DNA from: a bacterium
GTDB lineage: Bacteria; Verrucomicrobiota; Verrucomicrobiia; Limisphaerales; J093
Reading direction: 5' to 3'
Assembly: GCA_021823625.1 (NCBI GenBank)
Contig: JAKANS010000038.1
Location: forward strand, 1-38,566
DNA length: 38,566 bases
Made by a program: the position numbers and the translations under genes
Shown: in pieces, positions 32,258 through 38,566 of the stretch
How positions within the stretch are numbered: position 1 is the stretch's first letter
Layout of the letters: each line of letters starts with the position of its first letter
Notes under the pieces: model-generated
What the model was told of the DNA's origin: nothing
Seen by the model: only the letters and a program-made list of their open reading frames with translations
The model's database searches: none

Positions 32258-34057
32258 ATGCGCATACCTCCCATTCAGGAAGTCATTCATTGGCTGGAAG
32301 TCGGCCAGGGCGCCCGCGTCCTGCGCAACTTGGTCGGCCTGTTGTTCCTTCTCAGCCTGACCTTTTGGTACGATTTCTACCAATTCAGGAATTTCTCGGC
32401 CCCGGAGGCGATGGAAGCCGCCCAGCTCGCCCGCAACCTGGCGCGCGGGGAAGGTTTTACCACCCAGGTGGTCCGGCCGCTGGCCATCCAGTTGGTGGAA
32501 GACACCGGGGGTGTTGACGCCCGTCTGGCCAAAAGGCCACCGCCCGACCTGTTCAACCCGCCCGCGTATCCGCTGCTCCTGGCCGGCTGGATGAAGTTGA
32601 TGCCATTCGACTACGAAATCGGCGACCGTTTCTGGCAGTACCAGCCCGAGCTGCTGATCGCGGTCCTCAATCAACTCCTGTTCTTCTTCACCGCCTGGCT
32701 GATGTACCGGCTCGCCAAACGCCTGATCAGCGGTGAAATGGGGGTGTTGCTGGCCGGGTTGCTGCTGACCTCGGAACTGCTCTGGCGCTTCAGCACTTCG
32801 GGTCTGTCCACGATGTTGCTGCTCGCGATCGTGGCGGGGCTGTTATGGGTGTTGGTCCTGCTTGAAGAGGCGGCGCGGACGGACACGCGGGGACGGGGGT
32901 GGTTTCTGCGCTGGGGCGCGCTGGCGGGCCTGCTGTTGGGACTGGCCGGCCTTACGCGCTACGCCACCCTCGTGTTGATCGTGCCCCTGACGCTGTTCTA
33001 CGCGCTGTTTCTGGGCCGCCGCGCCACGGTCGTCCTGGCGATGACGGGGTTGACCTGTGCCGTCGTAATCACGCCGTGGCTGGTCCGCAATTACCAGGTC
33101 AGCGGCACGTTGTTCGGCATCCCCGGCGACACGGTTTACGAGAACACCCTGCGCTTTCCGGGCAACCGCCTCGAGCGTTCCGCCAAGCCGGACTTGACGG
33201 TCGTTCAGAACCTGGACTTCATCCGCAAAGCCGGCGAGGGTCTCCGCCTGGTGGCTTCCGACGACCTCCTGCGGTTGGGCGGAAGCTGGGTCGGTGCGTT
33301 CTGCCTGGTCGGGCTGGTGGGCCAGTATCGCAACCCGGCCCTGAACCGCCTCCGCGTTTTCTTGTTGCTGTGTCTGGTCACCCTCGGCGTCACGCAAAGT
33401 TTGGCCCGGACGCACTTGAGCACCGATTCCCCGCACCTCAACACCGAGAATTTGCTGATCTTGCTGACGCCAGGGGTGTTCCTGGTAGGTGTGACGTTTT
33501 ACTCCTGGTTGCTGGGCCGGCTCGAGTTGCCGTTCCACGAGTTCCGCCACGTCGTCAGCACCGTGGTGGCGGTCGGGGCCGCCGCGCCGCTGTTGACCGG
33601 TTTTCTGCCCCCGCAGACCGTCCCCATCGTCTATCCGCCGTATTACCCGCCTCACATACAGGAAGCGTCGCAGTTCCTCAAGCCCGGCGAACTTCTCATG
33701 ACCGACATGCCTTGGGCCACCGCCTGGTACGGTGACCGGCGGTCCGTCTGGATCCCGCTCGACTACGGCAAATCGTTCTTCGCGATCAACGACTACCAGC
33801 AAGCGGTTTCCGCTTTGCTGCTCAGTCCGCTGAGCACGGACGCCGAGTTCTGCCGCCAAATCCTTCAAAGCCGCGACTACGAATGGTCACGCCTGGCGGT
33901 GGAAGTGTTGGTGCGCAACAACGTGCCCACCGGCTTCCCGTTGACGAAGGCCTGGAAGCGCGGCGGGCCGGATTACCTCTTCCTGTGCGACCGCGAGCGC
34001 TGGAATGAACCGCCCGCGGACGGCAACGGTTCGTCGGGACCACCGGCCGACGAGTGA
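32258..34057 (+). CDS. Integral membrane glycosyltransferase (GT39/ArnT-like)
   Basis: The 599-residue protein has about ten hydrophobic segments, e.g. LVGLLFLLSLTFWYDFY, LIAVLNQLLFFFTAWLMY, MGVLLAGLLLTSELLW, TMLLLAIVAGLLWVLVLL and WGALAGLLLGLAGLTRYATL. It has features of GT-C enzymes: an acidic loop after the first helix (FSAPEAMEAAQLARNLARGEGF), NPPAYPLLLAGWM, and the helix-end motif LTRYATLVLIVPL. The C-terminal soluble part contains YPPYYPPHIQEASQFLKPGELLMTDMPWATAWYGDR, as in dolichyl-phosphate-mannose-type transferases. It would use a lipid-linked sugar donor at the membrane. Donor and acceptor are unknown. The family call is moderate. Confidence 0.7.
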   Translation: MRIPPIQEVIHWLEVGQGARVLRNLVGLLFLLSLTFWYDFYQFRNFSAPEAMEAAQLARNLARGEGFTTQVVRPLAIQLVEDTGGVDARLAKRPPPDLFNPPAYPLLLAGWMKLMPFDYEIGDRFWQYQPELLIAVLNQLLFFFTAWLMYRLAKRLISGEMGVLLAGLLLTSELLWRFSTSGLSTMLLLAIVAGLLWVLVLLEEAARTDTRGRGWFLRWGALAGLLLGLAGLTRYATLVLIVPLTLFYALFLGRRATVVLAMTGLTCAVVITPWLVRNYQVSGTLFGIPGDTVYENTLRFPGNRLERSAKPDLTVVQNLDFIRKAGEGLRLVASDDLLRLGGSWVGAFCLVGLVGQYRNPALNRLRVFLLLCLVTLGVTQSLARTHLSTDSPHLNTENLLILLTPGVFLVGVTFYSWLLGRLELPFHEFRHVVSTVVAVGAAAPLLTGFLPPQTVPIVYPPYYPPHIQEASQFLKPGELLMTDMPWATAWYGDRRSVWIPLDYGKSFFAINDYQQAVSALLLSPLSTDAEFCRQILQSRDYEWSRLAVEVLVRNNVPTGFPLTKAWKRGGPDYLFLCDRERWNEPPADGNGSSGPPADE

Positions 34058-34142
34058 TCCGCGAGCGATCCGCTTGCCAGCCGCGGCGGGGTCGGTCTTA
34101 CTTGGCGGGCTGGCCCAGGTCGGGCCCGCCGCCTTGTCGCCG

Positions 34143-35933
<1,791 letters not shown>

Positions 35934-36164: not shown

Positions 36165-37863
36165 ATGCAGCACGACATCATCGACAACCGGGAACGGAAG
36201 CTGGCGGGTTCGGTCAAGCCGTTGCTGTCGGAATCGGAGCGCGCCAAGTTCGCCGTCGGCTATTTCTTCATTTCGGGTTTCAAGCTCATCGCCCCAGAGC
36301 TGGAGAATCTGGCGGAATTGCGCCTGCTGGTGGGCAGCGTTTCAGACCACGAAACGGTCGAACAACTGGCCGAGACGCACACCGCCGCCCAACTGCTCGA
36401 CCGGGTCCGCAAACGGGAGTTCGCCAACCGCGCCGAGCGCGCCCAGGCGGTAGCCAAGGTCGGTGAGATCGTGCGCGGGCGCATCGTATGCTTGAGCCAG
36501 ACGGACGAGGACGAGCGGCTGATCGCGCTGTTGCTGCAACTCATCGAGGAAGGCCGGTTCAAGGTCCGCGTTTATACGAAATCGCGCCTCCACGCCAAGG
36601 CCTACATCTTTGACTATCCCCCCGGCCGGTATGACCGCGGCAGGGCCATCGTAGGTTCGTCAAACCTGTCGCTGACGGGTTTGACCGACAACACGGAGTT
36701 GAACGTGGAGGTGCGCGGCAACGGCAACCACGAGCAGCTCACCCAATGGTTCAACGCCCTTTGGGACGAAGCCGAGGACTTCGACGCGCTGCTGATGCGC
36801 GAGTTGCAGGCAAGCTGGGCGCTGAATCTGCCGACTCCGTTTGAGTTGTACGCCAAGATCCTGTGGCATCTGGTCTGCGACCGTCTGGAGCGCCCGCTCC
36901 AACAGATGCCGAGCGATTTCCCGCCGCTGGCCGATTTCCAATGGGCGGCCGTGCAAAGCGCTCTGCGCATTCTGCGGCGACACAACGGCGTAATCCTCGG
37001 CGACGTGGTGGGCTTCGGCAAGACGCTGATGGGCACTGCGCTGCTGAAGTGGTTCCACGCGCGCGAACGCTGGCGGGCGCTGATCGTGGCCCCCAAGCCG
37101 TTGAAGAAGATGTGGCTCAAGTTCAACAACGACTTCGGCCTGCGGGCGCAGGTGCTCAGCCTGGGGGGAACTCCGCAAGCCCGGTTTCGATTGGGCCCGC
37201 CTGGAGGACTTCGAGCCGGACATCGTGCTCCTGGACGAATCGCACCATTTCCGCCACCACGATACCGAGCAATACGACCGGCTCCGGCAGTTCCTCCATG
37301 CGCGCGGCCTGCCCGTGATCGGCCTGACCGCCACCCCGCGGAACCGGCTGGCGCGCGACGTGTACAACCAGATTCACCTGTTCCATCCCGATGAGGCCAT
37401 TGACCTGGGCCTGTCTCCGCCGCGGCTCCGCGACTATTTCAGCAAGATCGAGAAGCACGAGCGCGAACTGCCCCCGCTGCTCCAGCACTTCATGGTGCGC
37501 CGCACGCGCCGGCACATTCGCGAGCACTGGCCGGACGCGAAGATCAACGACCGCCCCATCAACTTGCCGACGCGCCGCCTGGAGACCATCAGCTACAACA
37601 TCAACCGCGCCTACAACGGCTTCTACGACCAACTCCGCCGCTTGATCGAGCCGCCCAACCCTCAAGACGGCAAGACCGGGGGCCTGTGTTACGCCCGCTA
37701 CCTGCTCATCGAGTATGTGGATGCCTCAGTGCGCGGGAAGCCGCCTTACAGCGACCTCGCCTTTGCCTGCAAGCTGGAGGAATTGCTGGCGGAGCAGCAG
37801 CGCGCGCGCGCGGCGCAGGTCGAAGCCACGCCCACCATCGTCTGCACCGAAGCCTTGATTTGA
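36165..37863 (+). pseudogene. PLD-superfamily II helicase (SNF2-like), frameshifted and truncated
   Basis: The first frame (to about 37165) encodes an N-terminal PLD/HKD-like domain, SRLHAKAYIFD (140-150, H143/K145) and AIVGSSNLSLTGL (161-173). An ATP-binding helicase start follows: ADFQWAAVQSALRIL and ILGDVVGFGKTLMGTALL (motif I, DVVGFGKT at 280-287). Deleting one G from the G6 run at 37163-37168 continues the protein into the next frame: LGELRKPGFDWARLEDFEPD, VLLDESHHFR (motif II) and GLTATPRN (motif III). The protein then stops soon after KPPYSDL, before motifs IV-VI, with an unrelated tail (LEELLAEQQRARAAQ). Helicase function is therefore lost. Full-length relatives are about 1000 residues and occur in antiphage loci. 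Confident on family, less so on the cause. Confidence 0.7.
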
Positions 37864-37867
37864 TACG

Positions 37868-38419
37868 ATGGCCTCCCAGTTCACAGCCAATCCCAAGATC
37901 ACCGCGCGGGTTTACGAGCGCCTGAAGTCGGGCATCAAAGACCGTGACGACCTGCTCCGGTTGTTCGTGAAGGATCTCGGCTACGAGCGCGTCGAACAAC
38001 CGATTCCGGCTACGAAGGATGTCTTCGGCGCTGGCGCGGTGCTGGAACTGGCACAACAATGCCGTCCCCTCCGCCTTGCTTGCCAGGCTCGCTTTGAAGT
38101 TCTGTACACCGAACTGGCCGGCGACCGCCTCGACTACGCCCGCCAGCGTTCGCTTGCCACCAAGCTGCTGGAGACGTTCCCGGACGCGCTTTTCGTTTTC
38201 GTCCGCGCCAGCACGCTCGGTGATGCGGGCGGCGCCGAGATCCATCTCCTCAACGTGAAGGCCACCGACGGAAAGATCTTCCGCCGCTTCAAGCTCGGCC
38301 CGGGCGAACGCTATCGCACGACCGCCGAACGGCTCTCCTTGATCGAGGCCGCTGATCCCGCGCTCGGCCCCGTGAACTTTCTTCGAAAACGCAGACCGCG
38401 AAAGCGGAGTGCTGGTTAA
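37868..38419 (+). pseudogene. N-terminal fragment of an Eco57I-like restriction-modification protein, truncated by an IS
   Basis: The 183-residue frame resembles the N-terminal segment of Eco57I-type (class I methyltransferase-containing) restriction enzymes. It has LLRLFVKDLGYE, then FEVLYTELAGDRLDYARQRSLATKLLETFPDALFVFV, the FRRFKLGPGERYRTTAERLSLIE block, and PALGPV where homology stops. The methyltransferase domain (NPPY-type motif) is absent. After about 38373 the DNA changes to a possible IS end (TGAAC...), and the last residues (FLRKRRPRKRSAG) are IS sequence. It lies 4 bp after the broken helicase, so the two formed one operon. The homology call is from pattern memory and is moderate. 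Confidence 0.55.
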
Positions 38420-38485
38420 GGGTTAACGGAACTGGTTTTCAAATTCCAGAGGTGATTGATGGCCCAAGGCGCTGTGGAAGCGGGG
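38373..38485 (-). mobile_element. IS3-family transposase remnant (C-terminal end plus likely IS terminus)
   Basis: On the minus strand, codons 38423-38482 read RFHSALGHQSPLEFENQFR followed by TAA, which is the conserved end of IS3-family transposases (HSALGxxSPxxFE). The IS end probably lies at 38373, where the plus strand reads TGAAC, a typical IS3-family terminal start. A small CCGC-GAAA-GCGG hairpin (38396-38407) lies inside it. Upstream of the motif, from about 38485, the reading frame no longer resembles a transposase, so the element is truncated or interrupted. Confidence 0.6.
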
Positions 38486-38538
38486 CGTGAGACAAAAATC
38501 AGGCAAGAAGGATTGAGGTTCAGTTTTTTCGTGACAGG

Positions 38539-38558
38539 ATATCTAGCATGATAGATAT
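38539..38558. repeat. AT-rich 7-bp palindrome near the right window edge
   Basis: ATATCTA (38539-38545) and TAGATAT (38552-38558) are perfect inverted repeats around GCATGA. The surrounding 80 bp are clearly more AT-rich than the chromosome and follow the IS3 remnant. They may belong to another inserted element that continues beyond the window. Confidence 0.4.
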
Positions 38559-38566
38559 TCACGGCG

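Follow-up and report, generated by a model that had tools for sequence, protein, structure and literature searches.

What gene pair stood at the end of this contig before it broke, how did it break, and what would its intact form do? The window, meaning the whole stretch of DNA analysed here, is the entire contig C61 (38,566 bases) of a draft genome of 6.1 Mb in 326 contigs, and position 38566 is the contig end in the assembly. Fragments of a helicase gene and of a DNA methyltransferase (MTase) gene lie at this end, followed by pieces of two repeated elements (Table 1). A sequence-only reading had described the locus as a collapsed antiphage-type island with a layered record of inactivation.

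Upstream of the helicase lies a carB-type gene (34005–35933) with the domains CPSase_L_D1, CPSase_L_D2 and MGS. Homology between the window and six relatives from the same genus or family ends at the stop codon of this gene, and neither a helicase nor an MTase is found downstream of carB in any of the six. These six carB loci also served as a small negative control for the pair and gave no match. As expected for an acquired island, the slot downstream of carB varies between relatives, and the description of the locus as an island is fair. The carB-type gene itself encodes 642 aa with just one CPSase_L unit and the MGS domain. Similar copies are present in relatives (82–88% identity) and a longer, divergent carB occurs in some genomes; a split carB seems normal for the family of the window genome.

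Table 1 Features at the right-hand end of the window
Feature	Position	Strand	Remarks
Helicase, first part: PLD nuclease domain and SNF2 lobe 1	36165–37169	+	335 residues; 60–61% identity to intact relatives
HKD motif HAKAYIFD	36591–36614	+	Intact
Second PLD motif GSSN	36654–36665	+	Intact
Walker A GFGKT	37011–37025	+	Intact
Six-G run, frame switch point of the helicase	37163–37168	+	
Helicase, remainder of lobe 1, other frame	37177–37761	+	56–59% identity to relatives
DESHH	37234–37248	+	Second helicase frame
LTATPR	37324–37341	+	Second helicase frame
Junction of in-frame internal deletion	37756–37765	+	About 532 residues (about 1.6 kb) lost
Native helicase C-terminus (KLEELLAEQ...IVCTEALI, then stop)	37762–37863	+	
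N-terminal 168 residues of Type IIG/PglX-like (Eco57I-family) N6-adenine MTase	37868–38371	+	66–68% identity to the G055 copy (1172 aa)
Terminal piece of putative IS3-family element, transposase C-terminus (HSALGHQSPLEFENQFR, then stop)	38372–38482	-	Truncates the MTase gene
End of second repeated element (GGGCGTGAGACAAAA...), inside the IS3 remnant	38483–38566		Shared with C263:1–84 and C197:19577–19660

The open reading frame at 36165 starts with a PLD domain (PLDc_2, 1.6e-11), which is followed by the front half of a motor of SNF2 type. The helicase family is a PLD–SNF2 fusion of about 1100 aa, of which the window has the PLD domain and lobe 1, broken and without Helicase_C. The frame changes at the six-G run, in line with the frameshift placed there by the sequence-only reading. 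Past this run the original frame continues as nonsense to 37394, and the in-frame product finishes with 74 frame-shifted residues, while helicase homology resumes in another frame and extends over 37177–37863. An intact relative compared with the window genome is matched over its residues 8–354 and 345–548, in two different frames. The motifs HxKx4D, GSSN, Walker A, DESHH and LTATPR are kept, and Walker A as well as H143 and K145 of the HKD motif are invariant across bacterial and archaeal homologues. The late helicase motifs LIFTQY, VATDVLSEG and QRFGRIDR are missing from the window copy, which agrees with the earlier remark that the helicase ends before them. The two helicase parts have GC3 values of 0.85 and 0.88, and their retained codon-position composition points to a recent decay.

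The same reading had also given the helicase an alien tail, which is ruled out by alignment to the intact C-termini of the family. The window helicase ends in "...ATPTIVCTEALI", matching the family C-terminus "...EPAIICTEALI", and the second helicase fragment as a whole closes with KLEELLAEQQRARAAQVEATPTIVCTEALI, for which the counterpart in G055 is KLDVLAERHGEISKLALEPAIICTEALI, each followed by a stop. Over the last 27 bases of the helicase, DNA identity to G055 is 81%. The tail is the family's own, so that the damage here consists of a deletion inside the gene that kept the frame. This deletion took the whole Helicase_C lobe, which is the second RecA lobe harboring motifs IV–VI, and a search of the window genome with an intact relative gave no trace of the rest of the helicase anywhere.

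The MTase fragment is adjacent to the helicase on the same strand and begins four bases past the helicase stop, where an Eco57I-like protein reduced to its N-terminus had indeed been noted. It keeps about 168 of roughly 1,170 residues, and the MTase and target-recognition domains are gone. Homology to relatives covers residues 1–168 only and ceases at about 38371; besides the G055 copy, identity is 61–62% to G058 and 34–38% to G152. A first contig scan with the fragment as query returned no match, and a search by sequence found no solved relative of the N-terminal domain. An alignment of five N-domains contains no conserved acidic/E-x-K signature of a PD-(D/E)XK nuclease, which makes the PLD domain of the helicase protein the most likely nuclease of the intact system.

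Elsewhere in the window genome, contig C297 carries a second wrecked Eco57I-type MTase (L066, 29–3335), which starts mid-gene after an IS630-type transposase gene and so comprises the middle and the end of the MTase, contains two in-frame TAG codons and shows 79% identity to the G152 type. This gene was considered as the continuation of the window MTase and rejected, since it reaches just 50–59% identity to the G055 type, whereas the window fragment reaches 66%. Judged by these identities, it is a second copy, wrecked independently of the window copy.

The MTase reading frame gives way at about 38372 to a minus-strand peptide that is assigned to the IS3 family by motif resemblance, as in the sequence-only reading, where an IS3 end truncates the restriction-modification gene. 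A Pfam search with the 21-residue IS3-type peptide of the window gave no hit, and a paralogous peptide at the end of contig C264 hits rve_2. In addition, 111 bases from about 38372 recur at C55 and C255 with 88–89% identity. The adjoining 84 bases end or nearly end contigs C263 and C197; because they recur with different flanks, they mark the end of a second element, which had previously been missed. In C197 this repeat leads into an open reading frame starting MTDIHGVNSSHSAQLFQQIAQIKRMERGKLTVMRQ, which has no Pfam hit. At least four inactivating events are thus recorded, namely the frameshift, the internal deletion, the IS3 element and the element within the IS3 remnant, and their order is settled for the last two alone, IS3 preceding the element inside it. 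The layers of the proposed record of inactivation hold, and replacement of the helicase C-lobe by foreign sequence does not, as the alignments place an internal deletion there.

With a frameshift, no second RecA lobe and an MTase that has lost its parts for catalysis and recognition, the window copy is, by its sequence, dead. A homopolymer shift by itself is weak evidence of inactivation, but neither the internal deletion nor the truncation of the partner depends on it. It is quite improbable that assembly or sequencing produced part of the damage, through a base-call or assembly error in the G6 run or a collapsed join at the deletion, and that the true locus is more complete. The shift does sit in a homopolymer, and the contig does end in repeats within a genome of many contigs. 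However, the deletion junction is in-frame and within unique coding sequence, the missing lobe is nowhere else in the assembly, and the IS3 boundary and the second element both recur on other contigs of the genome; moreover, relatives often have broken copies (G087, G192, G182 and Nostoc S4). A programmed or slippage frameshift, from which a two-part helicase would be expressed, has a next to negligible probability even with a homopolymeric run exactly at the switch point: no intact homologue needs a shift there, all having open frames, and the product would lack lobe 2 anyway.

The N-terminal remainder, composed of the PLD domain and half of the motor, could also have been kept as a smaller working nuclease, in which case the locus would be reduced and not dead. 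In its favour, the start codon leads in frame through undamaged HxKx4D, GSSN and Walker A motifs, the larger deletion preserves the reading frame, and the codon-position composition is still gene-like. We nevertheless regard this as highly improbable, because the in-frame protein carries the frame-shifted residues at its end, the partner gene is truncated too, and such a reduced form is seen as a conserved unit in no relative.

Several relatives carry damaged copies of their own. In G087 (C321; L049, 1195–2542), helicase residues 1–291 run straight into an MTase fragment, forming a collapsed pair, and G192 retains fragments of both genes. In G182, from the same genus as the window genome, the genes after the PLD-helicase are an ORF6N gene, a transposase gene of IS630 type and an MTase gene divided between two open reading frames (L080, 1264–9770). 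The helicase of Nostoc S4 (L130, 8953–10537) has an internal loss, with profile positions 190–807 missing and no MTase nearby, a parallel collapse. The broken copies in G087, G192, G182 and C297 of the window genome indicate that decay of the pair is common and that the window locus is an ordinary example. The window copy itself thus matters little, being one of several wrecked copies in the order.

Intact counterparts were sought with the helicase in 196 genomes of the order (Limisphaerales). Helicases 60% identical to that of the window are present in G152, G187 and G055, and a second clade at about 45% identity comprises G025, G054, G167, G178 and G052. Intact relatives include helicases of 1097–1124 aa with the domains PLDc_2, SNF2-rel and Helicase_C, the open frames of intact homologues range over 1097–1168 aa, and full-length partner MTases contain Eco57I, N6_Mtase and TaqI_C. 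The helicase precedes the MTase in G152 and G058, and the MTase precedes the helicase in G025, G052, G054, G167 and G178. The pair in G025 is complete, with an MTase of 1520 aa followed about 4 bp on by a helicase of 1124 aa. In the wider family (about 35% identity), the MTase is downstream on the same strand in 11 of 12 loci, and the one remaining locus is cut off by the end of its contig. Plasmids carry the pair as well, among them pPRO1 of Pelobacter propionicus (genes 1 bp apart), pSYSX of Synechocystis and those of Thermococcus profundus and Halorussus aquaticus.

Among named GTDB loci, an MTase lies beside the helicase on the same strand, in one order or the other, in 35 of the 39 loci with enough flank. 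Counting all 80 loci, it is adjacent in 57 and on the opposite strand in none, and the gap is at most 100 bp in 27 loci. Three of the four well-flanked loci without an MTase have broken helicases. The pair is a conserved two-gene module and not a chance neighbourhood, and it is distributed over many bacteria and some archaea. The sequence-only reading would have failed had the two genes never been found together elsewhere; they are complete and adjacent in G025, pPRO1 and pSYSX and in many GTDB genomes, and these intact pairs support its suggestion of a two-gene restriction or helicase-nuclease system.

In two loci, G058 (L045, 2666–3305) and pSYSX (L085, 10478–11111), a toxin–antitoxin pair composed of a MazE/AbrB-type antitoxin and a PIN/VapC-type toxin sits between helicase and MTase; by blastp, the two toxin–antitoxin pairs are no close homologues of each other. 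Synechocystis slr6095 (motif GGAN7TTGG) was considered as a homologue with a known recognition site and dropped, since it is published as part of the slr6095–97 Type I operon.

The adjacency could be explained in another way, by a stand-alone Type IIG enzyme lying beside an unrelated PLD-helicase, the two being joined by the clustering of defence genes. PADLOC labels the partner as Type IIG, the gene order varies between clades, and other defence genes (AbiE, McrBC and a toxin–antitoxin pair) are found near the pair in some genomes. The consistent strand and the short gaps, however, argue against independent genes, as do the broken helicases in most of the exceptions. In Latescibacteria (L158), the two neighbouring open reading frames scanned give no defence hit save one HNH gene. 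Independence of the two genes is therefore unlikely.

We consider it highly likely that the window locus decayed recently from a two-gene system of the ATP-dependent restriction-modification type. Gene 1 of the intact system encodes a PLD (HKD) nuclease fused to an SNF2-family motor, and gene 2 a Type IIG/PglX-like N6-adenine MTase that has a target-recognition region of its own. In the most likely mode of action, the MTase would recognise a motif in self DNA and mark it by N6-adenine methylation. On unmarked foreign DNA, the MTase/target-recognition subunit would load or license the SNF2 motor, which would translocate on ATP and bring PLD domains together for the cut. The sequences directly establish which domains are present, that the catalytic motifs are retained, that the adjacency is conserved, and every lesion of the window copy. 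The mechanism is proposed by analogy with SauUSI and CglI/NgoAVII, and the same holds for the DNA specificity, translocation, cleavage and antiviral protection ascribed to the intact pair. The system is probably antiviral, an antiphage function that we infer. The PADLOC call of "Type IIG REase-MTase" counts against the model, as it would make the partner self-sufficient in cleavage, although the aligned N-domains show no conserved PD-(D/E)XK signature.

The compact two-gene module is mildly interesting in its own right. At present it is annotated as two unrelated hits, a "helicase-related protein" and a "DNA methyltransferase". In the literature searched we found no restriction or antiphage experiment on the family of PLD-SNF2 helicase and MTase, and no named two-gene version of the pair; this coverage was partial, and we therefore do not claim the two-gene form as undescribed.

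Of the published systems, the Type-2 BREX-related (BR) system comes closest; it is composed of an HKD-Swi2/Snf2 helicase, an N6-MTase, a DUF499 ATPase and DUF3780 (PMC12839542). It resembles the pair in having an HKD nuclease fused before an Snf2 helicase and an adjacent N6-adenine MTase, a combination that the intact relatives possess. However, in 18 genomes with the pair or its remnants, DUF499 (PF04465) and DUF3780 (PF12635) never occur on the contig of the pair. DUF3780 is confined to G054 and G171, where it lies on contigs other than that of the pair, the window genome has no DUF499, and both domains are missing entirely from several genomes that have a clean pair. Membership in the Type-2 BREX-related systems was rejected, as neither domain lies beside the pair. 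DrmA and DrmB of DISARM class 1 are absent among the ten neighbouring open reading frames scanned in L070, L071, L072, L074, L111 and L158.

Among the PADLOC models, the candidate C3a139 ("HKD+Snf2") fits the intact helicases best (239–260 bits over residues 3–825 of about 1100), compared with 96 bits for the window fragment. It is a candidate model of a single protein, for which the library output gives neither a partner nor a mechanism. The truncated window fragment scores 41.5 bits against NCBIfam phospholipD_antiphage (NF042964), for which the curated cut-off is 1100 bits. Full-length partners are matched over most of their length by Type IIG/PglX models (PDLC03628, PDLC03604 and PDLC02529; up to 1310 bits), and PglX gives 366 bits for the G025 partner. 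Type IIG enzymes differ in that an N-terminal PD-(D/E)XK nuclease is fused to the MTase, whereas the partner here, as far as its aligned sequences tell, lacks a conserved signature of this kind and has a near-constant helicase neighbour.

Other systems also join a PLD nuclease to an ATP-driven motor. In PbeABCD, PbeA too links a PLD domain to a helicase, with weak similarity to the window (37 bits), but this is a four-gene cluster acting with DNA phosphorothioation (PMC6459918). CglI and NgoAVII are ATP-dependent restriction-modification systems with a PLD nuclease, an SF2 ATPase and an MTase (PMC4267653); they differ in that the nuclease and the ATPase reside in different subunits, of which the former bears a B3 recognition domain. 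SauUSI, a Type IV enzyme with PLD, SF2 ATPase and target-recognition domain (TRD) in one chain, has its PLD nuclease likewise fused before an SF2 motor, and cleaves upon convergence after ATP-driven translocation (PMC7913695). Its TRD is thus built in, and its target is methylated DNA, whereas the pair appears to place recognition and methylation in a separate MTase.

It is possible, and we put it forward tentatively, that the intact pair, which is spread over many bacterial phyla and archaea, represents a minimal and unnamed class of restriction system driven by ATP. In such a class, recognition and N6-methylation would fall to a PglX/Type IIG-like protein that has no nuclease of its own, a separate PLD-SNF2 motor would cut, and DUF499, PglZ, BrxC and DrmAB would have no part. 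If the pair is a minimal restriction-modification system, the PADLOC orphan C3a139 would be explained by gaining a partner, and a small testable link would connect BREX-related systems with single-chain ATP-dependent restriction enzymes. The class, if it exists, would be a relative of the BREX-related Type-2 systems with two genes, and would correspond to Type ISP and SauUSI enzymes in split form.
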